Part shown: piece by piece, positions 1 through 23,218 of the stretch
Position numbering within the stretch: the first letter of the stretch is position 1
Layout of the letters: each line of letters opens with the position of its first letter
Virus record (IMG/VR): IMGVR_UViG_3300009001_003905
Span: 1 to 26,026 of that record
DNA length: 26,026 nucleotides
Reading direction: 5' to 3' (one strand)
Origin: a virus
The notes under the pieces: generated by a model
The model's database searches: none
What the model was told of the DNA's origin: nothing
Seen by the model: only the letters and a program-made list of their open reading frames with translations
Program-made: the position numbers and the translations under genes

Positions 1-276
1 GGAAGTGTTGAGGCTGGCGATAAGATCGTTATCGTTAAGATCAATCCTCAAGATGTTGTGAGTGTTCCTAGTGACTGTAATTGCGAGAAACTTCGTACTT
101 GCAGATATGAAGTAGTCGGTGAGTATCAAGGCGAATTGCTCAAACCACTTTACAAGAGCGAGTTTGCTGAAGATGAATACCATGATGATGAAGATGATAG
201 CATCTACGACCAGTATGATGAAGATTACTGGGATCAGTATGATGAAGATGACGAAGAAGAATACGACGATTATTGA
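1..276 (+). CDS. rIIB-like protein, C-terminal part (5' end outside window)
   Basis: The reading frame is open from base 1 and ends at TGA 274-276, so the N-terminus lies outside the window. The visible part holds the block NPQDVVSVPSDCNCEKLRTC followed by RYEVV. From memory this resembles the C-terminus of phage rIIB-like proteins (consensus roughly NPxDVVSVPxDxxxxKLRTCRYxV). T4 rIIB affects lysis inhibition and phage exclusion, but the biochemical role of distant relatives is unknown. After this block comes a low-complexity acidic tail of about 38 residues rich in Asp, Glu and Tyr, with QYDED repeated. A GTG at 58 could be read as a start, but it falls inside the conserved block, so I treat the gene as continuing upstream. 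Base composition here is visibly less AT-rich than in most of the window. Confidence 0.55.
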   Translation, partial: GSVEAGDKIVIVKINPQDVVSVPSDCNCEKLRTCRYEVVGEYQGELLKPLYKSEFAEDEYHDDEDDSIYDQYDEDYWDQYDEDDEEEYDDY

Positions 277-402: not shown

Positions 403-1713
403 ATGACTACTTTTAGTAATGACCTTGGTTTTAACCCTTTTGACAAGACTAATGATGGGGCTAGTGAAGTAATGGGCGGGAAATTTCTCGACTCATTCGA
501 TCAACAGCATATCTTTTGCTACAACGGAAGTCCACGCAAAAAGATTAGCAGTATGAAGCATACGCAAAATATTACAGAGGTTTATGAAGCAAATAAAAAC
601 TCTGGTTCTGATGCTTACTTCTATATTAATGGTGGACGTAAGCAGTATGCGATTGATAAAATCGTCGCATGTTTCTGCGACATGGATGCTGGGCGTGATG
701 AAGAAGGTAAGTATTTTAAGCCTAGTATAGTAATGAAGCATAAGGAGCGGTTCCTACAAAAGATCAATGAATTTCCTGTGCCTCCTAGTTGGGTTGTTGA
801 TACTCGCAACGGTTATCAGTGTTACTGGATTCTTAATGCAAATGATCGTCAAGTTAATAAAACAACATGGAAGGGTGTGCAGAAAAAGTTGGCTAATCAT
901 TTTGGTGGAGATCCTCTTGCCATTAAGATTAATCAGATTTTCAGGGTTCCTTATACTTGGTGGCGTAAAGGTTGGGAAGGTAAGGCTCCTTACTTTACCA
1001 GTATCCTCAAGGGTAGCACAGGTAATACTGTGGCATTTAATGATCTCAAGAACACTCTTGAAGGAACATCGGCAAATATTGACTATCGCAAGATCAACAA
1101 AAGCAGTAATGCTTGGTTTGATGCTTGGAAGGTAGTCTCCGACGAGGCTGCTGCTAATGGTACTCCAATAGAAAAAATGAGTTATCAAGATCAAAGAAAA
1201 TGGCATCGTAAAGTTGCTGATGTTGTTTTTCAAGCATCTTACGGTCAGGAAATGCCAAAACCAACACCAACCCCTATGCTTGAAGATTATCCTAAAGAAC
1301 AGTGGCCTGTTAATCAATTTGCTTTACATGATAATCTTGTAGACTATCGTAATCCTAATAATAGCGATTCTATTATTGATCATGCAATTACTGATCACGC
1401 AAAAGCTGTGCTTAAAAGATTAAGTCAGGAAAGGGTTGATGAATTAGTAAATAAGTATGAAAATAACAGAACCACTGGTGAACCTCAACCAGTAGCCACT
1501 CTCGCTGGTTCTGATATGCCTGTGTACGATCCACACAAGGTTCTGCCAAGCGTTGATTTAAACGCTGACACTCAGCAGACGTTCCTTTTAAAGAAAACCG
1601 TAGAGTTCCTCAACCAAGTCTCTACACCACTATGGTTCAGTAAGAATCACTTCCTGAGCCGAGCGGCTAGAGAACTGGCTGACGAGATTAGTGATAAGTT
1701 CTGTGTAGGTTGA
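403..1713 (+). CDS. RepB/AEP-like DNA primase
   Basis: A 436-aa protein whose N-terminal 200 residues resemble archaeo-eukaryotic primases of the RepB-like phage/plasmid type. FCDMDAG (91-97) supplies the DxD metal site (D93, D95). TRNGYQCYW (134-142) sits where the small-residue-x-His or GxGxQxYW motif is expected. DPLAIKINQIFRVP (170-183) supplies the third acidic residue and the conserved RVP stretch. Such enzymes make primers or start replication. The C-terminal half (after about 215) shows no motif I recognise and no Walker A, so no helicase is fused to it. An AGGA at about 390 precedes the ATG. The catalytic His of many AEPs is Gln139 here, a variant I believe occurs in phage relatives. 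Function is inferred from motifs only. Confidence 0.6.
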   Translation: MTTFSNDLGFNPFDKTNDGASEVMGGKFLDSFDQQHIFCYNGSPRKKISSMKHTQNITEVYEANKNSGSDAYFYINGGRKQYAIDKIVACFCDMDAGRDEEGKYFKPSIVMKHKERFLQKINEFPVPPSWVVDTRNGYQCYWILNANDRQVNKTTWKGVQKKLANHFGGDPLAIKINQIFRVPYTWWRKGWEGKAPYFTSILKGSTGNTVAFNDLKNTLEGTSANIDYRKINKSSNAWFDAWKVVSDEAAANGTPIEKMSYQDQRKWHRKVADVVFQASYGQEMPKPTPTPMLEDYPKEQWPVNQFALHDNLVDYRNPNNSDSIIDHAITDHAKAVLKRLSQERVDELVNKYENNRTTGEPQPVATLAGSDMPVYDPHKVLPSVDLNADTQQTFLLKKTVEFLNQVSTPLWFSKNHFLSRAARELADEISDKFCVG

Positions 1714-1787: not shown

Positions 1788-2195
1788 ATGCATCAAGACC
1801 CAGAACACAACGATTACGATGATGATGAATATAATTATTATCCAGAATATAATGATTATAGCTATCCATACGCTAAAAAATTTGATTTAAATTGGGCTGC
1901 TTGGGAAGAATGGCTGTCTGATGCAATCAAAGAAATTGCTAATGAAAAAGATAACGTATGGCTGTTTGGTGGGTATAAACCACTATCAAAAAAAGGCAAT
2001 CCAACAAGTAAAAAACTAGACGATAAGTATTTTATGTACCTTGGTAATAACCAATATGATGAAGCAGTTTGGAAAACAAAATATTTCGATATCAATGAAC
2101 TAGAACTACAATATAAAAATCATTTAGCCAGTAATGCATCTTATTTTTTGAAACAGCCAATGTATTACAGAGGAATGTTCGATAACCTAAATTAA
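1788..2195 (+). CDS. Acidic Tyr/Asp-rich small protein of unknown function
   Basis: A 135-aa protein I do not recognise. The first 30 residues are a low-complexity stretch of Asp, Glu, Tyr and Asn, similar in flavour to the acidic tail of the rIIB-like protein upstream. The rest is a compact Trp/Tyr-rich region with WAAWEEWLSDAIKEIA near residues 36-51 and a WLFGGYKPLSKKG stretch. There is no signal peptide or membrane segment. GGAG (1778-1781) lies 6 bases before the ATG, and the gene follows a terminator/promoter pair, so it probably heads a new transcript that continues through the small genes to ruvB. Confidence 0.7.
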   Translation: MHQDPEHNDYDDDEYNYYPEYNDYSYPYAKKFDLNWAAWEEWLSDAIKEIANEKDNVWLFGGYKPLSKKGNPTSKKLDDKYFMYLGNNQYDEAVWKTKYFDINELELQYKNHLASNASYFLKQPMYYRGMFDNLN

Positions 2196-2200
2196 GAGAC

Positions 2201-2638
2201 ATGAATATGAGTAATGGATGGTTAGAGGTTATGAACCTTGAAAAGCTGGTAAAATTTAGTCGTAAAGTAATCTACTATAATTTTGACGAAAGCCATAGTA
2301 AACTGGACGATGAAAGTTTCATGGAGAAAATAGAAAATATATCAAATAAAAAAGACGATGAAGAAATGGAACGAGTCTTGCCATATAAAGAAATAGAAGC
2401 AATATTTGGTGAATTCTTGCATAGAAAAATGAGTAAAGAAACAAAGAAAAAAGCATGGTTTATTAAAGAAAAAGACTACAATATAATTCTTGAACAATTA
2501 TCTGAACGTATGGTTTCTAACATTGTCAGGGGTTTAGTTAACAAGGGTTTGGTTGAGTCGGCTTTTGATGACGAAAAAAACGAATTTGTATTTTGGGTAA
2601 AAGGCAATGACAACAAAAGAAAAGAAAAAGAAAAGTAA
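2201..2638 (+). CDS. Hypothetical charged protein, possible winged-helix C-terminus
   Basis: A 145-aa Lys/Glu-rich protein. The stretch from about residue 90 to 133 (beginning YNIILEQLSERMVSNIVRGL, then a two-strand-like EFVFWV end) has the helix-helix-hairpin look of a small winged-helix domain, but no family is recognised. The ATG at 2201 or the one at 2207 (MSNGW) could be the start. The gene begins 5 bases after the previous stop. Its Lys-rich tail overlaps the start of the zinc-ribbon gene at 2607 by 32 bases, so the two are probably translated together. It could be a DNA-binding accessory factor, but that is a guess. Confidence 0.65.
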   Translation: MNMSNGWLEVMNLEKLVKFSRKVIYYNFDESHSKLDDESFMEKIENISNKKDDEEMERVLPYKEIEAIFGEFLHRKMSKETKKKAWFIKEKDYNIILEQLSERMVSNIVRGLVNKGLVESAFDDEKNEFVFWVKGNDNKRKEKEK

Positions 2639-3107
2639 AACAATAGTTTTAAAACCAGCTTCTAAAGATATATACTATGAGTATGTTTGTCCTAAGTGTG
2701 GATGCAATCATTGGATCAATCATAAAGAGGCGTGTACTAAAAATTTTAAAATTGTCTGCGATTGCGATATAACCATTCGGCCAAAAAGAATAGTTGACAC
2801 AAAAATAATCTACGCGAAATCTAAAAAACCAAGTAGTCCAGAACCAGTTGAGCCACTTGAAAATAATGAACCGCCAACAGATAATAAAACAGAAGATGTG
2901 GCAGAGAATTCTTCACATCAAAAAGAATCAGACATTAATTTGGATGATCATGTATTAAGTGAGGCTTCAAAGATTTTAGTTGGGTACGGATATGAAGATA
3001 ATGAAGCAGATGATTTGATTAGAAAAGCATTTGAGTTAGAAAAACAAAACGACATTTCTATATTGGTTAAAGCAGTATTAAAGGGAATTGGAGTAGATCA
3101 TGATTAA
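2607..3107 (+). CDS. Zinc-ribbon protein with RuvA domain III-like C-terminus
   Basis: A 166-aa protein in three parts. The N-terminal Lys-rich segment is followed by a probable zinc ribbon (VCPKCGC at 27-33, then CDCD at 51-54). A Pro/Glu/Asn-rich linker (about 74-110) follows. The C-terminal helical domain (about 114-163) contains LSEASKILVGYGYEDNEADD then LIRKAF, with a second helix ILVKAVLKGIG. This resembles the three-helix domain III of RuvA (pattern EALxxLGYxxxEAxxAL...IRxAL), which tethers RuvA to RuvB. The next gene is a RuvB and starts 8 bases before this stop, so translational coupling is likely. RuvA domains I and II, which bind the junction, are absent. I infer an adapter that loads or tethers the phage RuvB. 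The domain III call rests on pattern resemblance and context. Confidence 0.5.
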   Translation: MTTKEKKKKSKTIVLKPASKDIYYEYVCPKCGCNHWINHKEACTKNFKIVCDCDITIRPKRIVDTKIIYAKSKKPSSPEPVEPLENNEPPTDNKTEDVAENSSHQKESDINLDDHVLSEASKILVGYGYEDNEADDLIRKAFELEKQNDISILVKAVLKGIGVDHD

Positions 3108-3999
3108 TTCTATTAGGCCCACTAGTTTCGATGATATTATTGGTCAGGAAGATACCATAAAGCGTCTACGCATCATGTCTAATGGCTGTAAAAGTTCGGG
3201 TCAGGTGATGCCTCATATTTTAATAGATGGCCCTCCCGGCCTTGGTAAGACCACTATAGCGAGTGCTATAGCCAATGAGTTAGGTGTGAATCTGTATACG
3301 GTGAACGCTGCTGCTGTGCGAACTATAAAAAATATTATTCCGTATCTGATGAATTTAGAGCCAAGATCAGTTCTTTTTATAGACGAAATTCACAGGCTGC
3401 CAAAATTAGTAGAAGAATTTTTATATCCAGTTATGGAAGATTTCAGAATAGATATGCTAGTAGAGAATAAACCGGATAGTATTGATCTGCCGGTGTTTAC
3501 TATGGTTGGAGCAACTACTAGTGGTGGAAGTTTAAGCCAGCCATTTTATGATCGTTTCACAATGAAAGAGCATCTTTCTTTTTATAGCGATAATGTCTTA
3601 GCTAAACTGGTAAGGTCGAATGCGGATAAACTAGGACTATCTTTAACCGATAGTCAGATGGTTTCTATAGCCGAGCGAAGTAAAGGAACTCCTAGAATTT
3701 TAAATGCTAGGCTACAATGGTATAAAAATTATGTCGAATCTTATCCAGAAGATAAAGATGATATAGATAAAATTTTTAATAGTCAGGGTATTGACTCTAA
3801 TGGTTTTGACTGTAATGATAAGTTATATATTGAAATATTAAAAAAGAATAGAACTAATCCTTTAGGCTTAAAAGCTATATCCAGCATGACAGGTATTGCT
3901 ATGGAAACTATTGAAAACAGTATTGAGCCTTATATGGTTAGAAAGGGATATGTTATTAGAACACAAAAGGGTAGATTACTAAATACAAGAAATCTATGA
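3100..3999 (+). CDS. ruvB: RuvB-like Holliday junction branch-migration ATPase
   Basis: A 299-aa AAA+ ATPase that follows RuvB closely along its length. It shows RPTSFDDIIGQ (6-16), Walker A GPPGLGKT (44-51), Walker B LFIDEIHR (92-99), LYPVMEDFRID (108-118), sensor 1 VGATT (136-140), the arginine finger in YDRF (R152), sensor 2 GTPRI (196-200) and a C-terminal winged helix with IEPYMVRKGYVIRTQKGR (about 275-292). Bacterial RuvB, with RuvA, pumps DNA through Holliday junctions. The protein is about 35 residues shorter than bacterial forms. The hairpin between FRID and DLPVF, which contacts RuvA domain III in E. coli, is about four residues shorter. No RuvC is visible in the window. It lies downstream of the RuvA-III-like gene and overlaps the first sugar gene by an ATGA. 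Confidence 0.93.
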   Translation: MINSIRPTSFDDIIGQEDTIKRLRIMSNGCKSSGQVMPHILIDGPPGLGKTTIASAIANELGVNLYTVNAAAVRTIKNIIPYLMNLEPRSVLFIDEIHRLPKLVEEFLYPVMEDFRIDMLVENKPDSIDLPVFTMVGATTSGGSLSQPFYDRFTMKEHLSFYSDNVLAKLVRSNADKLGLSLTDSQMVSIAERSKGTPRILNARLQWYKNYVESYPEDKDDIDKIFNSQGIDSNGFDCNDKLYIEILKKNRTNPLGLKAISSMTGIAMETIENSIEPYMVRKGYVIRTQKGRLLNTRNL

Positions 4000-4808
4000 A
4001 AACCGCTCTCTGCTTATCTGGTCAATCAAGAACATTTGAAAAATGTTTTGAAAGTCAATATAATCATATTATTCAGCCACTAAATGCGGATGTTTTTATT
4101 CATACTTGGACTTTTAGTGGTCATTCAGACATACATTCTACACATAATAATAATTATGATATATTCAAATATAAAGAATATGTAGAATCATATAGTCATA
4201 TAACCCCTGTAGAAAATATAATTTCATGTTATAAGCCCAAGAAAATTTTAATAGAACATCCTGATTACGATTTTTTTATTCAAAAAATTAAGAAGTCTTA
4301 TAGACATAATAAAAAAACAAATGATTTTGAATATAAATTATTTGGTAATGAAAATAACTACAAATGGTTTAATGTATTGATGATGTATTACGGCATATAT
4401 ATGAGTAATAAATTGAAATGCAATTATGAAAAAAAGAAAAATATGCAATACGATTTAGTAATAAGGTCTAGGATGGATTTGTTTTTCGAAAAATTTAATA
4501 TAAATAATCAAGACAACCATAATATTACACTACCCCCTAATGAGGATATAGATATTGTCTTTGATGAACATATGAAAAAGCAATTATTAGATGTTGGTCC
4601 GAAATTTATGCCAAACGATAAATTTGCATATGGAGGATCAAAGCAAATGGATTATTATTCATCTGCATATTTATTTTTTGATAAAGATGTCGATTACTAC
4701 CCACACCACGGAGAGGCTGTCATTACAGAGCATTTATGGGATAAAAACCATTCAGAATATAAAGAAATAAACATTAATAACAATATAAGAATGAAAATTC
4801 AAAGATGA
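3996..4808 (+). CDS. Glycosyltransferase-like protein (ALCLSGQSRTF type)
   Basis: A 270-aa protein. It opens with a beta strand and loop ALCLSGQSRTF (4-14), then ADVFIHTW (31-38). The motif YDLVIRSRMDLFF (152-164) lies in the middle. Proteins with this layout occur in polysaccharide loci and in large viruses and are thought to be GT-A-like glycosyltransferases, with RSRMD near the donor site. The acceptor and donor cannot be told from sequence. The start ATG overlaps the ruvB stop (ATGA) and its own stop overlaps the next start (ATGA), placing it first in the sugar operon. It is very AT-rich and Asn/Lys/Tyr-rich like its neighbours. Confidence 0.6.
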   Translation: MKTALCLSGQSRTFEKCFESQYNHIIQPLNADVFIHTWTFSGHSDIHSTHNNNYDIFKYKEYVESYSHITPVENIISCYKPKKILIEHPDYDFFIQKIKKSYRHNKKTNDFEYKLFGNENNYKWFNVLMMYYGIYMSNKLKCNYEKKKNMQYDLVIRSRMDLFFEKFNINNQDNHNITLPPNEDIDIVFDEHMKKQLLDVGPKFMPNDKFAYGGSKQMDYYSSAYLFFDKDVDYYPHHGEAVITEHLWDKNHSEYKEININNNIRMKIQR

Positions 4809-5338
4809 TTCATAAATATATTACTGTTGGCGGCTCGGGAACTAGAATGAAAGATATATCCCATGTAGACAAACAAAATCTATATTATTATAATAAGCAA
4901 ATTATAGAATGGATATTAGAAATATTTCCCGATGCTAAAATTGTAGGCGAAAATAAAACTGAGTCAAGAAAAGAGACTTTAAAATTAATTCCGATAAAAG
5001 ATAATGTGCTAATTATAGACTGCGACATTATACCATTCGGTATTGATTTATCAAAAATCGATATTAACAGCAATTGTGTTTATGTTTTTAATTCTAATAA
5101 AGATAAATATGGATCTATTATATTAAAGGACAATAAGATTTACAAAACCAGTGAAAGAGATAATATATCAAATATTAAATGTAGCGGTATTTATTTTTGT
5201 AAAAATTTAGAAAAAAATATTGAAGAAATGGAAGATAATAGTATTGTATCTAGTATGAATGGAGCTAATGTTGTATTTGAAAATACATTTAAAAGGCTGG
5301 GCGACATACAAGATTATTATGAAGCAATAGGAATTTAA
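4805..5338 (+). CDS. Compact sugar/NTP nucleotidyltransferase
   Basis: A 177-aa protein with the nucleotide-binding signature GGSGTRM (9-15) of the NTP_transferase family. The strand LIIDCDI (69-75) follows, in which D72 or D74 is the probable metal ligand, then a core with KCSGIYFC typical of the second half of these folds. Such enzymes make CDP-, GDP-, UDP- or dTDP-activated compounds from a phosphorylated substrate and an NTP. The protein is shorter than the usual 230-290 residues, so it is a minimal version. The next gene encodes a phosphatase-kinase fusion, so a phosphorylate-then-activate pathway is plausible. The substrate is unknown. Confidence 0.7.
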   Translation: MIHKYITVGGSGTRMKDISHVDKQNLYYYNKQIIEWILEIFPDAKIVGENKTESRKETLKLIPIKDNVLIIDCDIIPFGIDLSKIDINSNCVYVFNSNKDKYGSIILKDNKIYKTSERDNISNIKCSGIYFCKNLEKNIEEMEDNSIVSSMNGANVVFENTFKRLGDIQDYYEAIGI

Positions 5339-5344
5339 TTATCG

Positions 5345-6310
5345 ATGAGAATAGTGGTATGTGTAGATTTTGACGGAACTTTAGCATTAGGTAATAAGGG
5401 ATATATTACACTAGCTGAACCAAATTATAAGTTAATTGAAAGATTGCAAAATCTAAAAAAAACTATAAATCCATATATCAAAATTGTTACGGCTAGAGGA
5501 GCTAAAAATAATCTTAAATACAAAGAAAAACAAAAAAAGTATCAGCACCTAATCGAGCAATTTTGTAATATGTATGATATTCCATATGACGAAATATCTT
5601 TTAATAAAGAATATGCTGATATTTATGTAGACGATATGACAATAGATCAACATTCAGAATTTACTGGACAAATCAGCCCTATAACTTTAAATAACATTAT
5701 ATTCACAGAGAAGGCTGTGATTAAGAAAAGCCAATCTTCTTTGTTTGAAAAACAGTGGTATGATCTGGCTAACAAGAAATTTAACACACCGCAAGTATTA
5801 TTTTGCAATGACGAAACAATTATTACAGAAAGATTACTTGATACCCAAAAGGTGGATATGCAAGATTATATTGATCTACTAAGACAATTCCAGAATTCAA
5901 CAATAAATAATTATAATTATGATACATATTTAAATAACATAATTATAGATGAAAATTTATCTAAAAATGGTAAAGATATTATCTTAGAAATTCAACACAA
6001 AGAATTAAAGCCAACTTTTTTCCATGGAGACTTCAGCGTAGATAATATATTAAAAGTTAATAATAGTTTATTTATGATAGATCCTAATTATAAATATATA
6101 TTTGGAAACTATATTACAGACGCTGCGAAACTTTATTTTTCTATTGTTGCATATGAAAAAAATATTCATAAAGCAGATCAACTTGTCAAAGAATTTGGTA
6201 AAGATGTAATGGCATATGCTATTCCAGAAGGGCTGAGAGTCTGTAAATATAAAAAGAACTACATTAGTATTGTTAATAATATTGCCGAAATATATAAGAG
6301 AGTAGGATAA
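5345..6310 (+). CDS. HAD phosphatase fused to APH-like small-molecule kinase
   Basis: A 321-aa two-domain protein. Residues 1-110 are a small HAD domain: DFDGT (8-12) with nucleophile D8, motif II VTARG (48-52), and the acidic motif YVDDM (94-98). Residues about 120-321 are an aminoglycoside phosphotransferase/choline kinase-like domain: catalytic loop HGDFSVDNIL (227-236) with D229 and N234, and the metal-binding MIDPN (244-248). Similar kinases in capsule loci phosphorylate sugars or small substrates before activation by a nucleotidyltransferase, and here such an enzyme is encoded immediately upstream. It starts 6 bases after that stop, and the DUF6065 gene starts directly after its own stop. 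Having both domains in one chain suggests they work on the same metabolite. The exact substrate is unknown. Confidence 0.75.
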   Translation: MRIVVCVDFDGTLALGNKGYITLAEPNYKLIERLQNLKKTINPYIKIVTARGAKNNLKYKEKQKKYQHLIEQFCNMYDIPYDEISFNKEYADIYVDDMTIDQHSEFTGQISPITLNNIIFTEKAVIKKSQSSLFEKQWYDLANKKFNTPQVLFCNDETIITERLLDTQKVDMQDYIDLLRQFQNSTINNYNYDTYLNNIIIDENLSKNGKDIILEIQHKELKPTFFHGDFSVDNILKVNNSLFMIDPNYKYIFGNYITDAAKLYFSIVAYEKNIHKADQLVKEFGKDVMAYAIPEGLRVCKYKKNYISIVNNIAEIYKRVG

Positions 6311-7066
6311 ATGAGCGATATAATAAAAGAAAACTGCATCGCACTGATAGCACATAATCATGCGTTTCAAACTCAGGAGAATATTGATAAATTATATTCA
6401 TCTCTAAAGGGTAATTTTAAACGAGACTGGTTCGTTAAACACGCATATTTCTGCCTACCTTTAGTTATGGGTAATCAGCATGGCTTTGTTCTTAAAAGTA
6501 TACATGATATAGAGGTAGAATGGTCTGGTGGAGATAGTCCAAACGATGTTAAAGTTACTTATTTAGATCCAGAAGATTTTGAAAAAAATAAAATAATACA
6601 ATCAATAAGTAGTCATTTCGGAATGGGTACTATCACGATACAAACAACATTTTCGTTGCGTACTCCAGATGGTGTTAATTTAATGACTATTAATCCACCA
6701 AATTCTTTTATTGATGGATTATATCATATGACAGGGGTGATAGAAACAGATAATCTAAGGAGGGATTTTACTTATAATATTAGGATTACAAGACCTAATT
6801 ATAAAATTAAAATATCTAAAGGAGATATTGTTGGTTGTGTAATACCATATCCAAGACACTTTATAGATCATTTTGAAATCAAAAATGGTGCAGATATATT
6901 ATCTCACGACCAGCTTGACGCAGAAATGAAATGCGGGGAAGCGCACGGTAATGAGAGAGGCGATTTAGACAAATACAAAAAGAACGGTAATGGTCGTAGA
7001 TATCATAACGGTGAAGATGTTTACGGCAATAAATTTAAAGATCACCAAACACATCTAGATGATTGA
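6311..7066 (+). CDS. DUF6065 family protein
   Basis: A 251-aa protein that fits my memory of DUF6065: AYFCLPLVMGNQHGF (45-59), EVEWSGG (68-74), a FGMGTITIQTTF stretch, RTPDGVNLM, then DGLYHMTGVIETD and SKGDIVGCVIPYPR. The beta-rich pattern suggests a single globular domain. The family has no known biochemistry that I can cite. The last 60 residues are a polar His/Asn/Gly/Lys-rich tail (from about 195) that looks disordered. The ATG follows directly on the upstream TAA. The downstream dioxygenase overlaps it by 8 bases. The pairing with a 2OG dioxygenase suggests the two act on the same metabolite. Confidence 0.7.
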   Translation: MSDIIKENCIALIAHNHAFQTQENIDKLYSSLKGNFKRDWFVKHAYFCLPLVMGNQHGFVLKSIHDIEVEWSGGDSPNDVKVTYLDPEDFEKNKIIQSISSHFGMGTITIQTTFSLRTPDGVNLMTINPPNSFIDGLYHMTGVIETDNLRRDFTYNIRITRPNYKIKISKGDIVGCVIPYPRHFIDHFEIKNGADILSHDQLDAEMKCGEAHGNERGDLDKYKKNGNGRRYHNGEDVYGNKFKDHQTHLDD

Positions 7067-7640
7067 AAGAGAGTTTATAGTTATGGAATTCCCTACAGTA
7101 TTTGAAAATATTACAAACGAAAACGATATTCAATTGTTGGTTGATTACTTAGATGGCAATAAAAAAGATTTTGGTAAATTAGATCCTGATAATTATTGGC
7201 AAGGCAGGACTTTATTTTATAGTCAAATAAAAGACAATAATGTTAAATCTATAATGTTAAATTCATTGAAAGTAGTAATAAATAAATTGCGAGAAGCAAC
7301 TGGTAAGAAAATTTTTTGTGAACATTTTAGTATAGCAAGATGGCCGGAGGGATATGATTTGCAGCCCCATGCGGACGCAGAAAATCCACCAGATTGCCCA
7401 GATCATGAATATCCTTGGCGAGATTTCGGTATGGTCACATTTTTAAATGAAAATTTCGATGGCGGTGTATTATATTATCCTGGAAGAAATCTAGAAATAA
7501 AACCTAAAAAGGGATATACCGCAGTACATACTGGTGGTATGGACTGTTTGCATGGTGTGACAAAAATAACTAAAGGATCAAGATATACCATAGCAGCTTT
7601 TTTAACATATAACCAAGCTAAAAGCAGTATAGATATATGA
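7059..7640 (+). CDS. 2-oxoglutarate/Fe(II) dioxygenase (prolyl-4-hydroxylase-like)
   Basis: A 193-aa protein with the double-stranded beta-helix metal site: HADAENP (104-110) gives H104 and D106, HGVTKITKGSRYTIAAFLT (165-183) gives the distal H165 and the 2OG-binding R175, and FDGGVLYYPG (133-142) is the usual GGxLxF-like strand. The family hydroxylates proteins, nucleobases or small molecules using O2 and 2-oxoglutarate. Phage homologues are common, with mostly unknown substrates. A second start at 7083 (MEFPTVF) has AAAGAGAG about 9 bases upstream and may be the true one, in which case the protein is 185 aa. Both starts lie at the DUF6065 gene end. The stop overlaps the next ATG. Confidence 0.85.
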   Translation: MIEREFIVMEFPTVFENITNENDIQLLVDYLDGNKKDFGKLDPDNYWQGRTLFYSQIKDNNVKSIMLNSLKVVINKLREATGKKIFCEHFSIARWPEGYDLQPHADAENPPDCPDHEYPWRDFGMVTFLNENFDGGVLYYPGRNLEIKPKKGYTAVHTGGMDCLHGVTKITKGSRYTIAAFLTYNQAKSSIDI

Positions 7641-7936
7641 TTATTTATGTTGATATAGATGACACTATTTGTAAACTACCACCAAATAGTCAAGACTATA
7701 ATCAAGCCACCCCAATTTATGATAGAATAGCCAAGATAAATGACCTTTATGATAATGGGCATATAATTATTTATTGGACTGCTAGAGGCACTAAAACCGG
7801 TAAAGATTGGAGGAAAATAACAGAAGCTCAGTTTAATAAATGGATTGTTAAGTACCATGAAATAGTTTTTAATAAGCCTATATACGATTTATTTATAGAT
7901 GATAAAAACATAAGCTCAGAAGATTACTTTAAATGA
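7637..7936 (+). CDS. Small HAD phosphatase, capsule-biosynthesis type
   Basis: A 99-aa minimal HAD domain: VDIDDT (5-10) with nucleophile D6 and acid D8, motif II WTARG (47-51), and DLFIDDK (84-90) as the acidic motif. There is no cap domain. Similar short proteins are annotated as capsule biosynthesis phosphatases in bacterial and phage sugar clusters and would remove phosphate from a small phosphorylated compound. It overlaps both neighbours by ATGA-type junctions. It is the second of three HAD domains in the window, the others being in the 5345 fusion and in the gene at 21220-21579. Confidence 0.75.
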   Translation: MIIYVDIDDTICKLPPNSQDYNQATPIYDRIAKINDLYDNGHIIIYWTARGTKTGKDWRKITEAQFNKWIVKYHEIVFNKPIYDLFIDDKNISSEDYFK

Positions 7937-9036
7937 AATATGATTTTATCTTAGCAGTATTAGTATCTACAGCAAATGAAAAATATATACAAAGACTAAA
8001 AGACTTTATACAGATATACGGCTTTAAGTTTACTAACAAATATAATATTAGTTTTAAGATAGTATTTTTAGCTGGCGAATCTGAACCAAATTTTTTAAAA
8101 GACATTATCACTATAGAATACGAATGGTATCAACTAAAAGACACCCCAATCGCTCAGAGGTTTCTAGATTATATCTATACTCAGCCCATTGACTATAAGT
8201 GGATATTTCAGGTTGATGATGACTCTAGCACAGACATAGATCGCACATATGAAATATTAACAGATTTTTATGATTATAAAGATCCAATGTGTTTAATATC
8301 CGGAAGAACCGGAGATATGTGTATTAAACAACAATGTATCTTAAGAGATATGAAAATCAGGAACGTATTTTTTGGCAAATCAGATTTAAATGGTCATGAA
8401 GGACCGCCCATGTTTGTGTATGCTCGGGAAGCGACACTATACTCTTATAGTGCCGTACAAAAAATTAAACTTCATAACAGAACAGGCGAATATATCTCAT
8501 TAATACGTAAGCATAAAGTTTTGTGGGGAGATAATGGGGCGTCAGTCTTAGCTAAAATATGTAAAGTCCCTATAGTGGAAAGCACGTTTTTTGACAGTGG
8601 AGCTAGTTTGTATAAAGAATATTCGGCAATTAATCCTGAAGGTAGATTAACACATATACATTATATTTTAGATTCCTGGGTGCATTATGCAGATTGTGTA
8701 GAAACAATAAAAGCAAATAAAGATAAGATATTTAAGACGGATTATATCGATTTAGATACTAACATAGAGTTATGGGAGTTCAGTAGTATCAACACAAGCA
8801 CGGGTGATAGAAATTTAAATGGATATATGGAGTTAAGAAAAGATGGTACTATAGGCGTATATAATAATGATAATGAGAAATATTGGGAAAAAAGTCGGGA
8901 AAACGTAATAACATTATTCGATAAAGAAAAAAAACCCACATCTTTATTATTTCCGCAAAATAATGAATTATATTTAGGTGATTTTTTGTTGGATAAACAG
9001 AATCAAATCAGGCACGAACTGAAGAAATTAGAATGA
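7933..9036 (+). CDS. Glycosyltransferase, GT-A fold, DDD motif (fringe/GT31-like)
   Basis: A 367-aa protein. The N-terminal strand DFILAVLVSTANE is followed by KWIFQVDDDSSTD (89-101), where DDD is the metal/nucleotide-sugar site placed as in beta-1,3-glycosyltransferases. Then come CLISGRTGDM, a GPPMFVYAREA acceptor-side segment, and GDNGASVLAKI near residue 197. The last 90 residues (from about 280) form a separate beta-rich unit (ELWEFSS... GYMELRKDGTIGVYNNDN) resembling small C-terminal domains seen on some glycosyltransferases. Donor and acceptor are unknown. The start overlaps the HAD gene stop, and the stop overlaps a 44-aa ORF at 9033. Confidence 0.65.
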   Translation: MKYDFILAVLVSTANEKYIQRLKDFIQIYGFKFTNKYNISFKIVFLAGESEPNFLKDIITIEYEWYQLKDTPIAQRFLDYIYTQPIDYKWIFQVDDDSSTDIDRTYEILTDFYDYKDPMCLISGRTGDMCIKQQCILRDMKIRNVFFGKSDLNGHEGPPMFVYAREATLYSYSAVQKIKLHNRTGEYISLIRKHKVLWGDNGASVLAKICKVPIVESTFFDSGASLYKEYSAINPEGRLTHIHYILDSWVHYADCVETIKANKDKIFKTDYIDLDTNIELWEFSSINTSTGDRNLNGYMELRKDGTIGVYNNDNEKYWEKSRENVITLFDKEKKPTSLLFPQNNELYLGDFLLDKQNQIRHELKKLE

Positions 9037-9539: not shown

Positions 9540-10541
9540 ATGAGTAAAGGCTTAGATGTTGGTACTAGCTTTATTATAATGAGTAAATATAATGAGGATA
9601 AAATTGTATTTAAAGATTTCAGGGACGCTTTTTATATTATAAAGCCTAACACTCCTATTGCTACCAAAATGATAGAAAAGGGTTTGGCTGGTAAAACTTT
9701 TGTTAAAGATAGTGATGGTTCTTTTATTATACTGGGTAAAGACGCTATTGAAAAAGCAGTAGAAAGAAATGAAACTGCTCGTAGACCTATGTATAGGGGC
9801 GTTGTATCAGTAAAAGAAAAAGAAGCAAAAAGAGTGCTCGCTTATATACTAAAAGAAGTAGTCGGGAAAGCTTCGGAGCCCGGTGAAAAATTAGTGTTCT
9901 GTGTTCCTGCTCAACCGGTAGATCAAGAAGATGATGATTTTGATGTTGGATATCATGAAGATGTAGTAAAAACTATCCTGGCAGAAACCGGGCATGATGC
10001 TAGAGCTATTAACGAAGCGGAAGCATTATGTTACTCAGAACTAGAGGACACAGATTATACCGGTATCGGTATTAGTTGTGGTGCTGGCATGACCAACGTA
10101 TGCGTTATGCTAAACGGTGAACCCACAGTAGTCTTTAGCACAACCAAGTCTGGCGACTGGGTTGATCGTATGAGTGCTGTGGCTACCGGAGAGCCCGATA
10201 GTGTTGTTCAGGTAGAGAAAGAGGGCGGTGGATTTAAAGTTGGCGAATCTAACGAAAATCCTGTATTAAATGCTGTGTCTTCATATTACGAAAGGCTTAT
10301 AGAATATACAGCAAAACAATTATCAGCTGCTCTTGATGGTCATAAAGCATTACCTAAATTTAAAGAACCTATTAGAATTGTTGTTGCTGGAGGAACATCC
10401 CAAGCTGATGGGTATATTGAAAAATTAAATGAAAAATTAAATGAATCTAATTTTCCATTAGCTATTCAAGAGGTTAAGCACGCATCTGACCCTTTGCATG
10501 CTGTTTCTAAAGGTTGTTTAATAGCTGCCAGTATTCTTTGA
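9540..10541 (+). CDS. Actin/MreB-like ATPase
   Basis: A 333-aa protein with the actin-Hsp70 nucleotide-binding signatures in order: phosphate-1 GLDVGTSF (4-11), connect-1 INEAEAL (157-163), phosphate-2 GIGISCGAGMTN (175-186), and the adenosine motif IVVAGGTSQADGY (280-292). Length fits prokaryotic actin homologues such as ParM or MreB (320-350 aa). Such proteins polymerise for plasmid segregation, cell shape or phage DNA positioning. Some are non-polymerising ATPases, and the sequence cannot tell which. It pairs with the membrane protein 2 bases upstream. No ParR-like DNA-binding partner is evident next to it. Codon and base composition are like those of its neighbours. Confidence 0.8.
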   Translation: MSKGLDVGTSFIIMSKYNEDKIVFKDFRDAFYIIKPNTPIATKMIEKGLAGKTFVKDSDGSFIILGKDAIEKAVERNETARRPMYRGVVSVKEKEAKRVLAYILKEVVGKASEPGEKLVFCVPAQPVDQEDDDFDVGYHEDVVKTILAETGHDARAINEAEALCYSELEDTDYTGIGISCGAGMTNVCVMLNGEPTVVFSTTKSGDWVDRMSAVATGEPDSVVQVEKEGGGFKVGESNENPVLNAVSSYYERLIEYTAKQLSAALDGHKALPKFKEPIRIVVAGGTSQADGYIEKLNEKLNESNFPLAIQEVKHASDPLHAVSKGCLIAASIL

Positions 10542-10566: not shown

Positions 10567-11901
10567 TTGAGTAATTATAATCCTAGATTTAAATATAGCC
10601 AGATAGTGTCTTGTAGACTTCCTGAGCCACGGGGTGTTAATGAAGATGGTTTTATACCATGGGTTACTCCTGATGGTCAAGAATTATTTGTTACTAGAGA
10701 CTACGTTGTAAATAACCCGTATTGGAGATATTATTTTCCAGACACCGGTAGTGTAACTAATAATGTAGTGACAAGTCTGGGTGGTAATATATCTAAAACA
10801 TCAAAAAAGGGCTCTCGGGTTACTAGGGTATCTAAAGATAATAGTAGTTTGCAACCGGCGACAAAAAACAGGAAAACAATTATTTATACAGAAGAACCTA
10901 CGGGTAGTTCATCGCCTAAAGATGGTGTCGTGCTGATTCAGTCAGGTCGTAGCAAATTCAATATGTATGAAGCTAAACAAGAAAGAACCCCTAATACCGT
11001 TTCGTTTAAAGGGTCTGGTGATACTCCAATATCTAGCAATAGAGAAGGAAGCGATGCCGATTGTCAAGAAAAACCCGACAATCTATGCATTAAATGTGTT
11101 GATGGTAAGCTAATTGATTTAAATGACCAATTAGCTCCATGTAAAGGTTGTGAACCTGGTTCTGGTAAAATATTTGATATATACAGTACAACAAACCCTT
11201 GTGCAACTTGCGATCCTATTAAGGGTATTATAGATACTTGTGCAGATATGGGACCAGACTATGAGTGTGACACTCTTACTGGTGGGTGCAGACTAAAAGA
11301 TGGTGCTAGCAGTGGTAATAACTCATGTGCTGGTGTGGGACCATGCTATAATTGTGTAGAAACAGGACCAAATCCAGGCGATGTAGAAGTGACCCCAAAA
11401 TGTGATCGAGGAACAAGCTGTATAGAATTCGGTGATAATGGATTTTATTGTACCTGTCAGGGTCAGTGTCCGCCTCCGACACGAAGATATGACGATAGTG
11501 GTTGTAGGTGTGAGTGTAGAGACCCTGGTTGTACCAATGGTCAAAGTTTTGTCTTTGAGCGTGGCTCGAGCGGATCACCCGGAGCTTGTGGTTGCTACTG
11601 CCCAAATTACAACTGGGGAGGTAGACCAGAGTACCGTGGTCAAAGTCGTTGTGGCAAGTACGAATTAGTCAATGGCTCTAATTGTCAGTGTGAGTGTGTT
11701 ATTAATGATAGTAAATGTCCAGGTAATTTATCTGCAGATTTTAATACTTGTACATGCGTATGTGATAAAAGCAAAGTATCATGTCCTGATGGACAAAGTC
11801 CAAGCGATGATTGCGTTTGCGTTGATGACGAAGACGATGGTGGTGGTAGCAGTACTGGTTATGGTGCGGGTTTAGCTCACTTTAATAATCTCTTGCCGTA
11901 A
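10567..11901 (+). CDS. Cysteine-rich protein 1 (possible virion surface protein)
   Basis: A 444-aa protein starting at TTG, chosen because AAAGGAG (10554-10560) sits 6 bases upstream. Residues 1-160 are Cys-poor with a GGNIS motif (about 78-82) and basic Ser/Thr-rich linkers. Residues about 165-430 hold about 36 cysteines in EGF-like or knottin-like spacing, with repeated CxCxC units (CRCEC, CGCYC, CQCEC, CTCVC) and the phrase CATCDPIKGI. It ends with an acidic/Gly linker and FNNLLP. There is no signal peptide. It shares GGNIS, CDPxKG and a similar C-terminal ending with the protein at 13091, so the two look like paralogues. I infer a disulfide- or metal-stabilised virion appendage. No family is recognised. 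Confidence 0.75.
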   Translation: MSNYNPRFKYSQIVSCRLPEPRGVNEDGFIPWVTPDGQELFVTRDYVVNNPYWRYYFPDTGSVTNNVVTSLGGNISKTSKKGSRVTRVSKDNSSLQPATKNRKTIIYTEEPTGSSSPKDGVVLIQSGRSKFNMYEAKQERTPNTVSFKGSGDTPISSNREGSDADCQEKPDNLCIKCVDGKLIDLNDQLAPCKGCEPGSGKIFDIYSTTNPCATCDPIKGIIDTCADMGPDYECDTLTGGCRLKDGASSGNNSCAGVGPCYNCVETGPNPGDVEVTPKCDRGTSCIEFGDNGFYCTCQGQCPPPTRRYDDSGCRCECRDPGCTNGQSFVFERGSSGSPGACGCYCPNYNWGGRPEYRGQSRCGKYELVNGSNCQCECVINDSKCPGNLSADFNTCTCVCDKSKVSCPDGQSPSDDCVCVDDEDDGGGSSTGYGAGLAHFNNLLP

Positions 11902-12230: not shown

Positions 12231-12266
12231 AGGTAAATAAACTCTTCTAGTATGGAGGGTATTCTT

Positions 12267-13040
12267 ATGAAATACCTTATTTTTAGTCTTTTTATTATAT
12301 TTTCTTGCATCGCCAACGGTGGAACTATAGACCCTAATGTTCAAGATAGTAAATATCTAGAATATGGAGCAAAGCATAAATGTGTATTGCCTATCATGGG
12401 TATACTTGATGATGGCCTTAATTCTAATTTCAGAGGGTCTTGTGTTCTTATAGACAGGTATCACATCTTAACAGCCGCGCACATAGTAGCTGATTCTATT
12501 ACACAGCATGTTATATATGATAATGAAGCATACTCTTGCCGTATTGTGGCTATGCACTCTAAATTTGATAGTAAAAAGACTGGCATGTACGATATAGCTA
12601 TAGCAAAATTACAAAGACCTATAGAATTAGATTTTTATCCAGAATTATATGGTGATGGGGATGAAAAGGGTAAGGTTTGTAGTATAGCTGGATATGGTTA
12701 TACTGGTAATTTTAAAACTGGCTATAACGTAAAAAAATATGACAATAAAAAAAGAGCAGGATCTAATATAATTTCAGGTATAGAAAATGATGTTTTGGTT
12801 TTTAATCTAAGAGATAATCCTCAAACCACCCTTGAATTTATGATATGTCCTGGGGATAGCGGTGGTGGTTTATTTATAGATAACAAACTAGCTGGAATTA
12901 ACTCTTTTATATATGCTAAAGATGGAAACGCTAATGCTAATTACAATGATAGTGGCTGTTGTACAAGAATTAGTGTATATACTGATTGGATAGAGGATAC
13001 TAAAAAAATTATAGAAAAAATAGAAGCTTCTAATAAATAA
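12267..13040 (+). CDS. Secreted trypsin-like serine protease (S1 family)
   Basis: A 257-aa protein with the chymotrypsin-fold triad: His72 in LTAAHIV (68-74), Asp109 in YDIAIAKL (108-115), Ser198 in CPGDSGGGLF (194-203). The N-terminus MKYLIFSLFIIFSCIANGG is a signal peptide. IFSC could also be a weak lipobox at Cys14, which would make it a lipoprotein. The start at 12267 is set by GGAGGG (12254-12259) 7 bases upstream. An in-frame ATG at 12252 would place charged residues in front of the signal and overlap that site. The protease should act in the periplasm or outside the cell. It lies between two Cys-rich proteins, which are candidate substrates. A secreted S1 protease is unusual cargo for a phage. 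Confidence 0.9.
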   Translation: MKYLIFSLFIIFSCIANGGTIDPNVQDSKYLEYGAKHKCVLPIMGILDDGLNSNFRGSCVLIDRYHILTAAHIVADSITQHVIYDNEAYSCRIVAMHSKFDSKKTGMYDIAIAKLQRPIELDFYPELYGDGDEKGKVCSIAGYGYTGNFKTGYNVKKYDNKKRAGSNIISGIENDVLVFNLRDNPQTTLEFMICPGDSGGGLFIDNKLAGINSFIYAKDGNANANYNDSGCCTRISVYTDWIEDTKKIIEKIEASNK

Positions 13041-13090: not shown

Positions 13091-14605
13091 ATGGCGAATA
13101 ACCCGTACAATCCTATTCTGCATACAGGAGGTAATATATCTTCTAGAGATAAAATATACCACAGGGATGTTACAGATGGCGGAAACATTAGTAATACGGT
13201 GCCTACAGATCCGGATATTAAAATAAATAATAATTCTATATCTTATGTTAATTCGTCAAATGTCGTGGTGGATAGGAAGAGACAGAATGAGCAAAGTTTA
13301 GAATTTCCAGCTGCCTATGATGCTGGCGGGATAGTGTATAAGAAGGATACTGCTTCAGCGAATGGGCCATATAAACGACCACAAACGGTTAATGGTCCAT
13401 TAATTAGTCCATTAGTCATTGCTCAAGTATGGACACCTCCTCAAAGGTCGGGTAATTTACCATACCTTGGAGACCCTTGCGACTTGGCTGATGACGGGAA
13501 GGAGGATCCAGCAAACCCATGTTTTGTGTGCTATAGTGGATACTGGCTACATATGAATGAAATACGTTCTCTAGGTATCTGCGGAGAATGGATAGAAACG
13601 TGGGATCCGTTCCGTGGAAAGGAATGTGAAGAGCATAGGTATGATTTTGGCGCATGTTTTAAGTGTGATCCTACAAAAGGAGTAGAACCTCTATGTCACA
13701 GCGACTGCGAAGAGTGTGTTGTAGGAGGGAATGGAAGGGGAGCGTGTCGGTCTAAATGTCAGTACGCATGTCTAGAAGGTGGTGTTTGCGTAGAGCCGTG
13801 TATCGAAGGGGTTCCAGAAGGAGCATTAGTAAAACCTAACCCAAAAACATGTAATAAGAACTTATGTGAAGAGTGTGGCTTAGTGGGAACATATCAAGGT
13901 CCAGGCGTAAAAGCATGCGTAAGCTATTGCGGACCGTTCCAAACTTGTGTAAATGGCGAGTGTAAAGATAGATGCTCACCGCATTGCCTTTCCTGTGAAG
14001 AATGTGTTTTCAGGGATGGGGTGTGGGGATGTAGGCTGTCTCCAGTATTTACTGACGATGGATCCTCCACTCGCACTCTTGAATCTGAAGGTTATGGCGT
14101 GGTTTGTTGTCAGCCGGAACCGGAGTCTAGAGGAGAGGTTGTGCAGTGGAGGCCTGGATGTGAATCTCTTGGCCCTAATTGTACAGTGGTAGACGAATGT
14201 GCGGCGCAGAACAAGATATGTGACGAGACTTACGATCGAGTTACAGAAACCTACACATTTGCCTGTAAAGACAAATGCAAGCTAGATAGTGATTGTGGCC
14301 CTTGTAAGTTTTGTAATGATAATCGAGAATGTGAGAGTATTTGCAAGGGTTTTGAGGTCTGCGTAAACGATGAGTGTGTATATGTGTCAGACCACATAGA
14401 ATGCAAACAAAATTGTGAAGCCCTTGAATTTCATTGTACAAACTGTGATCCGTGCGACATAACCGATCCGGCATGTTGGGAATGTGTGGATCGGTGCCCG
14501 CAAGATGTATTACCTCTAAAATGTTTACCTGTTGCTGGTGGTTTCCCTGGGCAACACGCGTGTCAATATCAAGAAACGGTCATATTAGCTAATATTATGC
14601 CTTGA
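13091..14605 (+). CDS. Cysteine-rich protein 2 (possible virion surface protein)
   Basis: A 504-aa protein. Residues 1-125 are Cys-free and Asn/Ser-rich with two GGNIS motifs (HTGGNIS and DGGNIS). From about residue 128 onward there are about 52 cysteines in short-spaced clusters such as CHSDCEEC, CSPHCLSCEEC and CGPCKFC, and the phrase CFKCDPTKGV matches CDPIKGI in Cys-rich protein 1. It ends ILANIMP, echoing the LLP end of protein 1. No signal peptide is present, so disulfides would have to form after lysis or in the virion, unless the cysteines bind metal. The region is clearly less AT-rich than its neighbours (many GGA, GTG and CGG codons), hinting at a different origin or different selection. 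No known family is recognised. Confidence 0.75.
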   Translation: MANNPYNPILHTGGNISSRDKIYHRDVTDGGNISNTVPTDPDIKINNNSISYVNSSNVVVDRKRQNEQSLEFPAAYDAGGIVYKKDTASANGPYKRPQTVNGPLISPLVIAQVWTPPQRSGNLPYLGDPCDLADDGKEDPANPCFVCYSGYWLHMNEIRSLGICGEWIETWDPFRGKECEEHRYDFGACFKCDPTKGVEPLCHSDCEECVVGGNGRGACRSKCQYACLEGGVCVEPCIEGVPEGALVKPNPKTCNKNLCEECGLVGTYQGPGVKACVSYCGPFQTCVNGECKDRCSPHCLSCEECVFRDGVWGCRLSPVFTDDGSSTRTLESEGYGVVCCQPEPESRGEVVQWRPGCESLGPNCTVVDECAAQNKICDETYDRVTETYTFACKDKCKLDSDCGPCKFCNDNRECESICKGFEVCVNDECVYVSDHIECKQNCEALEFHCTNCDPCDITDPACWECVDRCPQDVLPLKCLPVAGGFPGQHACQYQETVILANIMP

Positions 14606-14630: not shown

Positions 14631-15536
14631 ATGAGAGATAATGCATTTTTATTGCCATATAAATCTGAAGATTTTTTTGGTCTATCCCCTAATGATCCAC
14701 AGCTTAAAGGCTGGGAAATTACAAAATTTAATGTAGATAAACAATGGGTTAAGAGCACTGGCAGGGGTGTTAGGGTAGCGGTAATAGATACTGGATGCGA
14801 TATTAATCATCCGGATATAAAAAATAATATAGAAGGCGAATATAATTTTGTAAATGATAATACTAGCGCCATGGATGATAATGGTCATGGTTCTCATGTT
14901 GCTGGTACAATTGCCGCATGTAACAATAATAGGGGCATGGTTGGTGTTGCTCCTGATGCAAAAATTTTAGCACTAAAAGCATTAGATAAAAATGGTGGTG
15001 GTAATTTAACAAATGTTGCCAAAGCTATAGATTATGCTGTTAAAGAAAAAGTAGATATTATCACTATGTCTTTAGGGTCCCGCGGTTCCTCACTTACTGT
15101 AAAAAGAGCTGTAAAAAGAGCTCACGATAGTGGCTGCTTAATATTCTGTGCTGCTGGCAATTCTGGTCCAAATGTTGATATTATGTTTCCAGCAAAATAT
15201 CCAGAAACTATCAGTATCGGAGCTATAGATGAAAATTTAAATAGAACAAATTTTACATGTAGTGGTCCTAGCCTTGATTTTTTAGCTCCAGGTCATAATA
15301 TAATGAGTATAATACCAGGTGGTAGATATGCTTTAATGAGTGGCACAAGCATGAGCAATCCTTTTGCTGCTGGTGTTGCTGCTTTGTATCTATCCTATTA
15401 TAGACAAAAATACAATAAAAAACCAAATAGAGAAGAAATGATAGAAATCTTAAAAAAACACGCAATTAGCATAAAAAATGAAGCATTTAAATCTAAAAAA
15501 TATCAAGGATATGGCATAATTAATCCTATAATTTAG
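14631..15536 (+). CDS. Intracellular-type subtilisin (S8) protease
   Basis: A 301-aa protein with the complete subtilisin triad: Asp53 in VIDTGCD (51-57), His86 in DDNGHGSHVAGT (82-93), Ser240 in MSGTSMSNPFAAG (236-248), and oxyanion Asn177 in AAGNSG (174-179). There is no signal peptide and no large prodomain. The N-terminus FLLPYKSEDFF (6-16) resembles the short LIPY-type inhibitory extension of Bacillus intracellular subtilisins. The following GRGVRVAVIDTGCDINHPD also fits that subgroup, so it probably acts in the cytoplasm or inside the virion. GAGGTG lies about 6 bases upstream of the ATG. It follows Cys-rich gene 2, so virion protein maturation is a reasonable but untested role. Confidence 0.93.
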   Translation: MRDNAFLLPYKSEDFFGLSPNDPQLKGWEITKFNVDKQWVKSTGRGVRVAVIDTGCDINHPDIKNNIEGEYNFVNDNTSAMDDNGHGSHVAGTIAACNNNRGMVGVAPDAKILALKALDKNGGGNLTNVAKAIDYAVKEKVDIITMSLGSRGSSLTVKRAVKRAHDSGCLIFCAAGNSGPNVDIMFPAKYPETISIGAIDENLNRTNFTCSGPSLDFLAPGHNIMSIIPGGRYALMSGTSMSNPFAAGVAALYLSYYRQKYNKKPNREEMIEILKKHAISIKNEAFKSKKYQGYGIINPII

Positions 15537-15975: not shown

Positions 15976-16833
15976 ATGAAAATATACACAATGGTATCAA
16001 AGTCTCATCAATATTTATCCGATGAGTATTTTGCTAAAAGCGTTAAGGAATTTGAACCAAATGCTGAGATTATATTTGAGGAACAAAAACAAATATGTCA
16101 ATCTGGCGAATATTATTCTGACGGATGGAAAGAATCTATGCGCCAAAAAGTGGAAATATACGAAAAAGCCATATCGTCAAATGAGGAATATTTTATATGG
16201 TCAGATGTTGATATAGAATTTTATAAGCCATTCATAGAAACCTGCATACAAGAGCTTGGCGAATACGATATAGCTTTCCAAGAAGGAGTTGGTGGTGAAT
16301 ATTGTGCTGGATTTTTTATAGCTAAAATTAATGAAAGAACAAAAAAGTTTTTCCAACTATTAAAAGAAAAATACGATCTATATTCTTGTGATCAAGAAGC
16401 TATTAATAGGAACATAAAATTAGTAAAAGCTAAATTTTTATCGCATATTTTCTTAAATATATCTTTTCAGCATAGGCATTGGAATGGACAGCCATTTAAA
16501 ATTGAAAATGAACTCATTATGTTTCATGCTAATTATACAGTTGGTCTACAAAATAAAATCAACCTATTGAATATGGCTAAAAAATATAATGAAAAAATTA
16601 AATACAATATTTTAGAGAAAGAAAATATTGAAATTTTAGAAGCTTACTACGGATCTGTTACTGACGTTACTGATATTTTACAAAAATCAACAGATAAAAT
16701 ACACGCAACAACAGTTTTTTTAGAAACAGACCCTATGCCAGGATTATTTAAGTATATGTATTTATTTGACAAAAATAATCAATTAATTTCTCCAGCTATA
16801 GATGAAGGCTCATTTATTTTTTTTAATGATTAG
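15976..16833 (+). CDS. Nucleotide-diphospho-sugar transferase (DVD motif)
   Basis: A 285-aa GT-A-like protein. YFIWSDVDIEFYKPF (72-86) carries the DxD metal motif (D77, D79), EYCAGFFIAK (108-117) is the CxGFF-type strand, and SCDQEAINR (137-145) is the distal catalytic/substrate segment. This order matches the nucleotide-diphospho-sugar transferase family (PF03407-like, GT77-related). Sugar and acceptor are unknown. The last 70 residues are less conserved in type. It heads the right-hand glycan block on the + strand, and its end overlaps the fucosyltransferase start by 8 bases. Confidence 0.75.
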   Translation: MKIYTMVSKSHQYLSDEYFAKSVKEFEPNAEIIFEEQKQICQSGEYYSDGWKESMRQKVEIYEKAISSNEEYFIWSDVDIEFYKPFIETCIQELGEYDIAFQEGVGGEYCAGFFIAKINERTKKFFQLLKEKYDLYSCDQEAINRNIKLVKAKFLSHIFLNISFQHRHWNGQPFKIENELIMFHANYTVGLQNKINLLNMAKKYNEKIKYNILEKENIEILEAYYGSVTDVTDILQKSTDKIHATTVFLETDPMPGLFKYMYLFDKNNQLISPAIDEGSFIFFND

Positions 16834-23133: not shown

Positions 23134-23166
23134 TAACAAACCTCCACAAGTAAAGTATATAAAATA

Positions 23167-23178
23167 ATAATACACCAA
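23167..23178 (-). promoter_or_regulatory. TTGGTGTATTAT box, minus strand
   Basis: Read on the minus strand, TTGGTGTATTAT differs in one base of 12 from TTGGTGTATAAT at 23219-23230 on the plus strand. It lies 34 bases upstream of the minus operon start at 23133, with GGAGG between, as expected for that operon's promoter. Confidence 0.5.
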
Positions 23179-23218
23179 CTTATACACCCTAATGCCATAT
23201 GCATACTTTACAAGATTA

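Follow-up and report, generated by a model that had tools for sequence, protein, structure and literature searches.

In a phage genome we found a gene for a RuvB motor that overlaps, at its start, a gene encoding a small zinc-ribbon protein whose C-terminal domain corresponds to domain III of RuvA (RuvA-III). The window, by which we mean the entire stretch that was analysed, is a 26-kb IMG/VR virus record, and the same composition is conserved in many related viral contigs; no RuvA core is recognisable in 20 related records. Because this phage RuvB usually adjoins a zinc-binding protein that ends in RuvA-III, the motor has possibly been rewired to a new target, away from the four-way DNA junction with bound RuvA on which RuvB usually acts. 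Our preferred explanation, to which we assign a probability of roughly 0.6, is that the RuvA-III tether has been moved onto a zinc-ribbon head that recruits and activates the RuvB motor of the phage, with recombination-dependent replication as the probable context.

Cellular RuvB is known to work through RuvA, in which domain III holds the motor in place and also sets its timing. A natural system with domain III but no junction-binding core separates recognition from the tethering and timing of the motor. The phage pair would make it possible to study the effect of an isolated domain III on RuvB, and to ask if the motor can be directed to other DNA structures. In addition, a widespread uncultured phage group gains a recombination motor that was reported missing from surveyed jumbo phages. 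The features of the locus are collected in Table 1.

Table 1. Features of the phage ruvB locus, with positions in the window
Feature	Position	Strand	Description
Possible RepB/AEP-type primase	403..1713	+	PF16793 weak, 0.0074-0.024, 6/19 members; clustered in 27/51 loci
Acidic protein	1788..2195	+	135 aa; position conserved, 47/51 loci
Winged-helix-like protein	2201..2638	+	145 aa; AF2 pLDDT 81.6; weak MarR/SarA-like matches
Zinc-ribbon protein	2607..3107	+	166 aa; basic N-tail, zinc ribbon, disordered linker, C-terminal RuvA-III-like domain
Zinc ribbon	2688..2765	+	residues 28-53; four invariant Cys; AF2 pLDDT about 95
RuvA-III-like domain	2937..3104	+	residues 111-166
Phage RuvB	3100..3999	+	299 aa; AAA+ large domain, lid, winged helix
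RuvB pre-sensor-1 hairpin	3442..3489	+	residues 115-130

The phage RuvB

Judged by its sequence, the product of the last gene is a complete RuvB in which the catalytic residues are kept. The Pfam families RuvB_N (8e-48), AAA_lid_4 (7e-8) and RuvB_C (1e-16) match in this order along the ORF, its best matches among PDB sequences are the solved structures of bacterial RuvBs (4e-66), and it aligns with E. coli RuvB at 39% identity. Walker A lies at residues 44-51 (GPPGLGKT), Walker B at 92-99 (LFIDEIHR), the arginine finger at R152 (E. coli R174) and sensor 2 at R199, exactly as initially annotated; the annotated winged helix is present too, and both Walker motifs and both arginines are shared with E. 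coli RuvB. The arginine finger and the sensor 2 arginine are invariant across 80 bacterial and 29 phage RuvBs. In the wing, R287, K290 and R292 align with the P. aeruginosa RuvB wing residues R314, R317 and R319 (PMC10071043), and the DNA-contact positions of the winged-helix hairpin in the phage RuvBs are R/K, K/R and R, the middle one being mostly K.

Two further positions set the phage proteins apart. At the positions of E. coli R163 and R172, 79 of the 80 sampled bacterial RuvBs have arginine in each case, whereas all 29 phage RuvBs have S or C at the first (residue 141, window positions 3520-3522) and Y at the second (residue 150, 3547-3549). The R163 position may, by approximate numbering, be a candidate equivalent of the T. 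thermophilus Arg147 DNA contact (PMC10272136).

A zinc-ribbon protein that ends in RuvA domain III

The adapter and ruvB genes lie at the coordinates initially annotated and overlap by 8 bp. The zinc ribbon proposed for the adapter is also well founded, in that C28, C31, C51 and C53 are kept in all 35 aligned relatives; K16 and P17 of the basic N-tail, G128 and E133 are equally invariant. These 35 diverse proteins, which were reached only via their ruvB neighbours, are 28-52% identical to the window protein, and the linker between their ribbon and their C-terminal domain ranges from 13 to 61 residues. AlphaFold2 models the ribbon and the three-helix end of the window protein confidently and the linker as disordered. 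A single-sequence search with this protein gave no match in Pfam, the PDB or phage records, both the zinc-ribbon and the winged-helix family have weak matches to assorted PHROGs, and none of the loci inspected showed a natural fusion of the zinc-ribbon protein to RuvB.

As the window protein alone has no Pfam match, most of the similarity to RuvA-III required a family profile. When the profile of the zinc-ribbon family was searched against all PDB sequences, RuvA-III took the top four places (0.0019 to 0.044). RuvA_C is, among all Pfam families, the one matched by most members (9 of 35), and the most-matched of all NCBIfam families is ruvA, with 17 of 35 members and a best value of 1.2e-4; the window protein itself matches NCBIfam ruvA at 0.0041, along RuvA positions 138-202. 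A profile match above 80% to RuvA-III had been named beforehand as a check, and hhalign against RuvA-III of E. coli and 43 other bacteria reached 97.0% with a score of 46.2, compared with a mean of 7.2 and a maximum of 12.5 in 100 column shuffles. When full-length proteins were aligned to each other by hhalign, RuvA 152-203 alone aligned.

The fold searches with the C-terminal domain point the same way. All of the top 12 Foldseek matches are RuvA (E 0.3 to 1.6, probability 0.92-1.00), and so are VIA ranks 1-13 (Z 7.4 to 5.9), with designed, CUE and UBA domains ranking lower. A VIA Z below 8 is not decisive by itself; it is the agreement with the sequence profiles that decides the identity as RuvA-III. 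The residues L167, L170, G171 and E176 of E. coli RuvA correspond to L124, Y127, G128 and E133 of the window protein, and these positions are L/M, Y/L/F, G and E in every one of the 35 zinc-ribbon proteins. Alanine mutants of E. coli RuvA L167 and L170 abolish RuvB activity (PMC2628435). The resemblance to RuvA-III that had been claimed for the C-terminus is thus borne out by sequence profiles, hhalign and fold search alike.

The same is true of the claim that RuvA domains I and II are missing. They are not in the gene, and RuvA_N was found in none of 20 related viral records of 42-238 kb (a control was positive in 10 of 14 genomes). The one RuvA_C match in related records at E up to 1 (0.008) lies at the coordinates of the zinc-ribbon gene itself. 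Since a zinc ribbon stands in place of domains I and II, the protein is not filed as RuvA.

Gene neighbourhood

Across 51 non-redundant loci the gene order is rIIA-like, rIIB-like, RepB-primase-like (a weak assignment), acidic, winged-helix-like, zinc-ribbon and RuvB. The first two are presumably relatives of rIIA and rIIB, as their names were read off their sequences; in most relatives these T4 rIIA-like (884 aa) and rIIB-like (285 aa) genes lie about 3.4-6.2 kb upstream of ruvB, and the first ORF of the window (58-276) has weak RIIB PHROG matches (0.009). The 436-aa protein encoded next is well conserved and has no PDB profile match, and its RepB_primase match is weak; it is possibly a divergent AEP-type primase. 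The winged-helix-like ORF overlaps the zinc-ribbon gene by 32 bp. In fold searches with its product (Foldseek best E 0.17, VIA Z below 5) no single PDB fold stands out.

The winged-helix-like gene, the third of the overlapping set and one that the initial annotation did not mention, is more constant than the zinc-ribbon gene. It is present in 48 of the 51 non-redundant loci, and the zinc-ribbon gene, counted by BLAST cluster, in 39; among 226 further loci, 218 of the 219 with more than 1 kb upstream have the winged-helix-like gene. In both sets together 209 loci have the zinc-ribbon gene and 64 lack it, some contigs being counted twice. Where it is absent from the further loci, the winged-helix-like gene abuts ruvB, with a gap of -46 to 56 bp, compared with a median of 379 bp where it is present. 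On these counts, the constant pair consists of the winged-helix-like gene and RuvB, and the third part, the zinc-ribbon protein, is common but can be lost; this modifies the picture first drawn.

The loci without the zinc-ribbon gene look like repeated losses. Homologous phage ruvB genes without this neighbour had been named initially as evidence against the pairing. They do occur, at about a quarter of the loci, but about three quarters carry the zinc-ribbon gene; the losses, together with a docking hairpin that is relaxed more often where they occurred (see below), fit a real but losable partner. In records that have no copy beside ruvB the gene was not found elsewhere, although these records are possibly incomplete and the second search had no positive control.

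The docking hairpin and the zinc-ribbon gene

In cellular systems, RuvA-III docks on the pre-sensor-1 hairpin of RuvB (PMC9477746), which in E. coli RuvB comprises L135-L152 (PMC2628435). This hairpin is present (at about residues 117-130) and hydrophobic in the window RuvB, and is four residues shorter than in bacterial RuvBs. Residues 119 and 121 correspond to E. coli I137 and I139, which are hydrophobic in all 80 sampled bacterial RuvBs. In our first set, both residues are hydrophobic in every one of the 39 unique RuvBs that have the zinc-ribbon gene beside them, but in just 1 of the 11 that lack it, and out of 299 columns these two are the most strongly associated with the gene. When labels were permuted over lineage clusters in this set, the best of all columns reached only P=0.087, and the sum over the hairpin 0.004.

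The new loci gave a weaker contrast, with both residues hydrophobic in 65 of 70 RuvBs with the zinc-ribbon gene versus 22 of 28 without. Counted as held-out clusters, the hydrophobic pair was kept in 32 and lost in 4 with the gene, and kept in 13 and lost in 6 without (p=0.08). For all clusters the corresponding numbers are 54 kept and 4 lost versus 14 kept and 10 lost (Fisher p=4e-4), where the clusters are related by descent, some hold both states, and the pooled data include the set that suggested the association. Because the association is weaker on new loci, we treat it as supporting evidence, not proof: the hairpin hydrophobics appear to be lost more often without the zinc-ribbon gene, and the direction of this effect holds while its strength does not.

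Recombination and replication genes in related records

RecA is encoded in 12 of 13 large related records and endonuclease VII in 8 of 13. RuvC was found in none of the 20 related viral records, and RusA and a beta clamp in none of the 13 large ones; these absences are not proof, since the related records may be fragments. One record of 195 kb encodes a Pol III alpha finger domain, PHP, an exonuclease, Toprim, RecA proteins and a gp41-like helicase. We considered a T4-like replisome for this record and rejected it, as only the helicase match points there and is weak, the gp44 match is RuvB itself, and Pol III alpha finger, PHP, Toprim and RecA are found instead.

The phage group and the remainder of the window

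A first scan returned 91 viral stretches with a relative of the window RuvB, the best 80 of the 91 being 63-100% identical to it, and a second query for relatives returned 221 viral stretches. Hundreds of viral contigs carry this RuvB, and they represent a large, uncultured phage group. A maximum-likelihood tree that includes 81 bacterial RuvBs groups the phage RuvBs in one separate clade (100/100) on a long branch, which in this unrooted tree adjoins Planctomycetota. Planctomycetota also supply the sampled cellular RuvBs closest to the phage ones (38-42% identity), including the best four cellular matches among those listed (40-42%). A DUF1559 protein in one related record, which we take to belong to a planctomycete family, points likewise to this phylum. 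That the host belongs to Planctomycetota is our guess.

Several other genes of the window deserve mention in their own right. The product of 9540-10541 has a full-length match to Volactin (PF25216, 2.9e-66), no PDB sequence match and no clear PHROG, and a homologue is present in 40 of 51 non-redundant ruvB loci. We take Volactin to be an archaeal actin-like protein, and this product presumably to be a phage actin-like protein of that family. Two long cysteine-rich, repeat-like proteins (10567-11901 and 13091-14605) are encoded near a subtilase (14631-15536) and a trypsin-like protease (12252-13040), which is unusual for a phage. Many genes in 3996-8000 and 15976-25726, some on the minus strand, resemble glycosyltransferases and sugar or nucleotide-sugar enzymes. 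At the contig end, 25803-26026 is a low-complexity repeat whose minus-strand frame is a valine run.

Proposed mechanism and alternatives

We propose that the RuvA-III part of the zinc-ribbon protein would dock on the pre-sensor-1 hairpin of phage RuvB and, by analogy with RuvAB, would tether the RuvB hexamer and stimulate its ATPase and nucleotide exchange. Tethering and ATPase stimulation are known from RuvAB (PMC9477746, PMC10272136). The ribbon, possibly in concert with the winged-helix-like protein encoded next to it, would be a different targeting head used instead of the tetramer of RuvA domains I and II; it is in this sense that we infer that the ribbon replaces the junction-binding core. 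RuvB would then pump duplex DNA; the likeliest purpose is to migrate branches or remodel forks during recombination-dependent replication, where phage RecA and, in those phages that have it, endonuclease VII may act together with the motor. Counting against the recruitment of RuvB by the zinc-ribbon protein are the loci that have no zinc-ribbon gene, the 14 of 24 such clusters that keep the hairpin hydrophobics, and the shortened hairpin. A wider picture, to which we would give somewhat less than even odds, is that RuvA-III was uncoupled from junction recognition and attached to a zinc ribbon, with the result that what loads RuvB is not a Holliday junction with bound RuvA but another DNA structure or a protein, adapter-less lineages loading it via the winged-helix-like neighbour or host RuvA, in a phage group that apparently infects planctomycetes.

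The main rival explanation is replication initiation or helicase loading, in which the winged-helix-like and primase-like proteins mark an origin or fork, the adapter recruits RuvB to that site for DNA opening or remodelling, and recombination is not the main role. The conserved order from the primase-like gene to ruvB suits such a module, as does the constancy with which the winged-helix-like gene neighbours phage ruvB, and one can add the weak RepB_primase match and the few members that match the PHROG 'replication initiation protein' at 0.003. However, the primase and winged-helix assignments are themselves weak, a Toprim primase and a gp41-like helicase are encoded elsewhere in one related record, and the phage RuvB keeps the residues of a duplex translocase. 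We therefore consider this explanation unlikely, if the most serious of the competitors. It is improbable that the zinc-ribbon protein is instead a decoy, whose RuvA-III occupies host RuvB and shuts off host RuvAB while the adjacency to phage ruvB is incidental. A RuvA-III without domains I and II would be expected to compete with RuvA, but the genes overlap or nearly overlap at most loci and the phage RuvB hairpin varies with the presence of the zinc-ribbon gene.

The other two alternatives concern what the proteins are. The C-terminal domain could be a generic UBA-like three-helix bundle with a convergent similarity to RuvA, given that CUE and UBA domains follow RuvA in the fold ranking at Z 5.1 and lower, and that the Foldseek E-values exceed 0.1. 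Yet RuvA-III comes first in the whole-library PDB profile, Pfam and NCBIfam searches and holds the leading VIA ranks, and the gene adjoins ruvB, so this idea was already disfavoured and we think it slightly less probable still than a decoy. Finally, the best PHROG matches of phage RuvB are annotated as clamp loader. This reading was rejected as extremely improbable, as the full RuvB lid and winged helix are present, no beta clamp was found in the 13 records, and the 195-kb record has no match to T4 gp45 or gp62.

Comparison with known systems

The initial annotation knew of no comparable phage RuvB, and our searches of open-access journal literature likewise brought up neither such a phage RuvB nor a protein that combines a zinc ribbon with RuvA-III. 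For 224 jumbo phages, a survey noted RuvC without a RuvB-like ATPase (PMC7824862). Described phages in INPHARED do include records with a RuvB-like ATPase, but all of these are below 60% identity to the phage RuvB, the full-length ones listed being at 33-39%, and the zinc-ribbon protein is not in any INPHARED phage with a RuvB match. T4 UvsW and T5 D10 resemble the system described here in providing a phage-encoded branch-migration function, although they belong to a helicase superfamily different from that of RuvB; uvsW has no match in the 195-kb record. Branch migration has been described for T5 D10 (PMC5180179).

The RuvABC resolvasome differs in its nuclease, as endonuclease VII appears in related phage records and RuvC does not. 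Bacterial RuvAB is the closest parallel in the RuvB motor with all its catalytic residues, in a RuvA domain III with the key hydrophobic residues kept, and in an adapter gene directly upstream of ruvB, the same order as in ruvA-ruvB. In contrast to bacterial RuvAB, the phage RuvB has a hairpin four residues shorter and S/C and Y at the positions of the E. coli R163 and R172 arginines, and the phage adapter has, in place of RuvA domains I and II, a zinc ribbon as its head.
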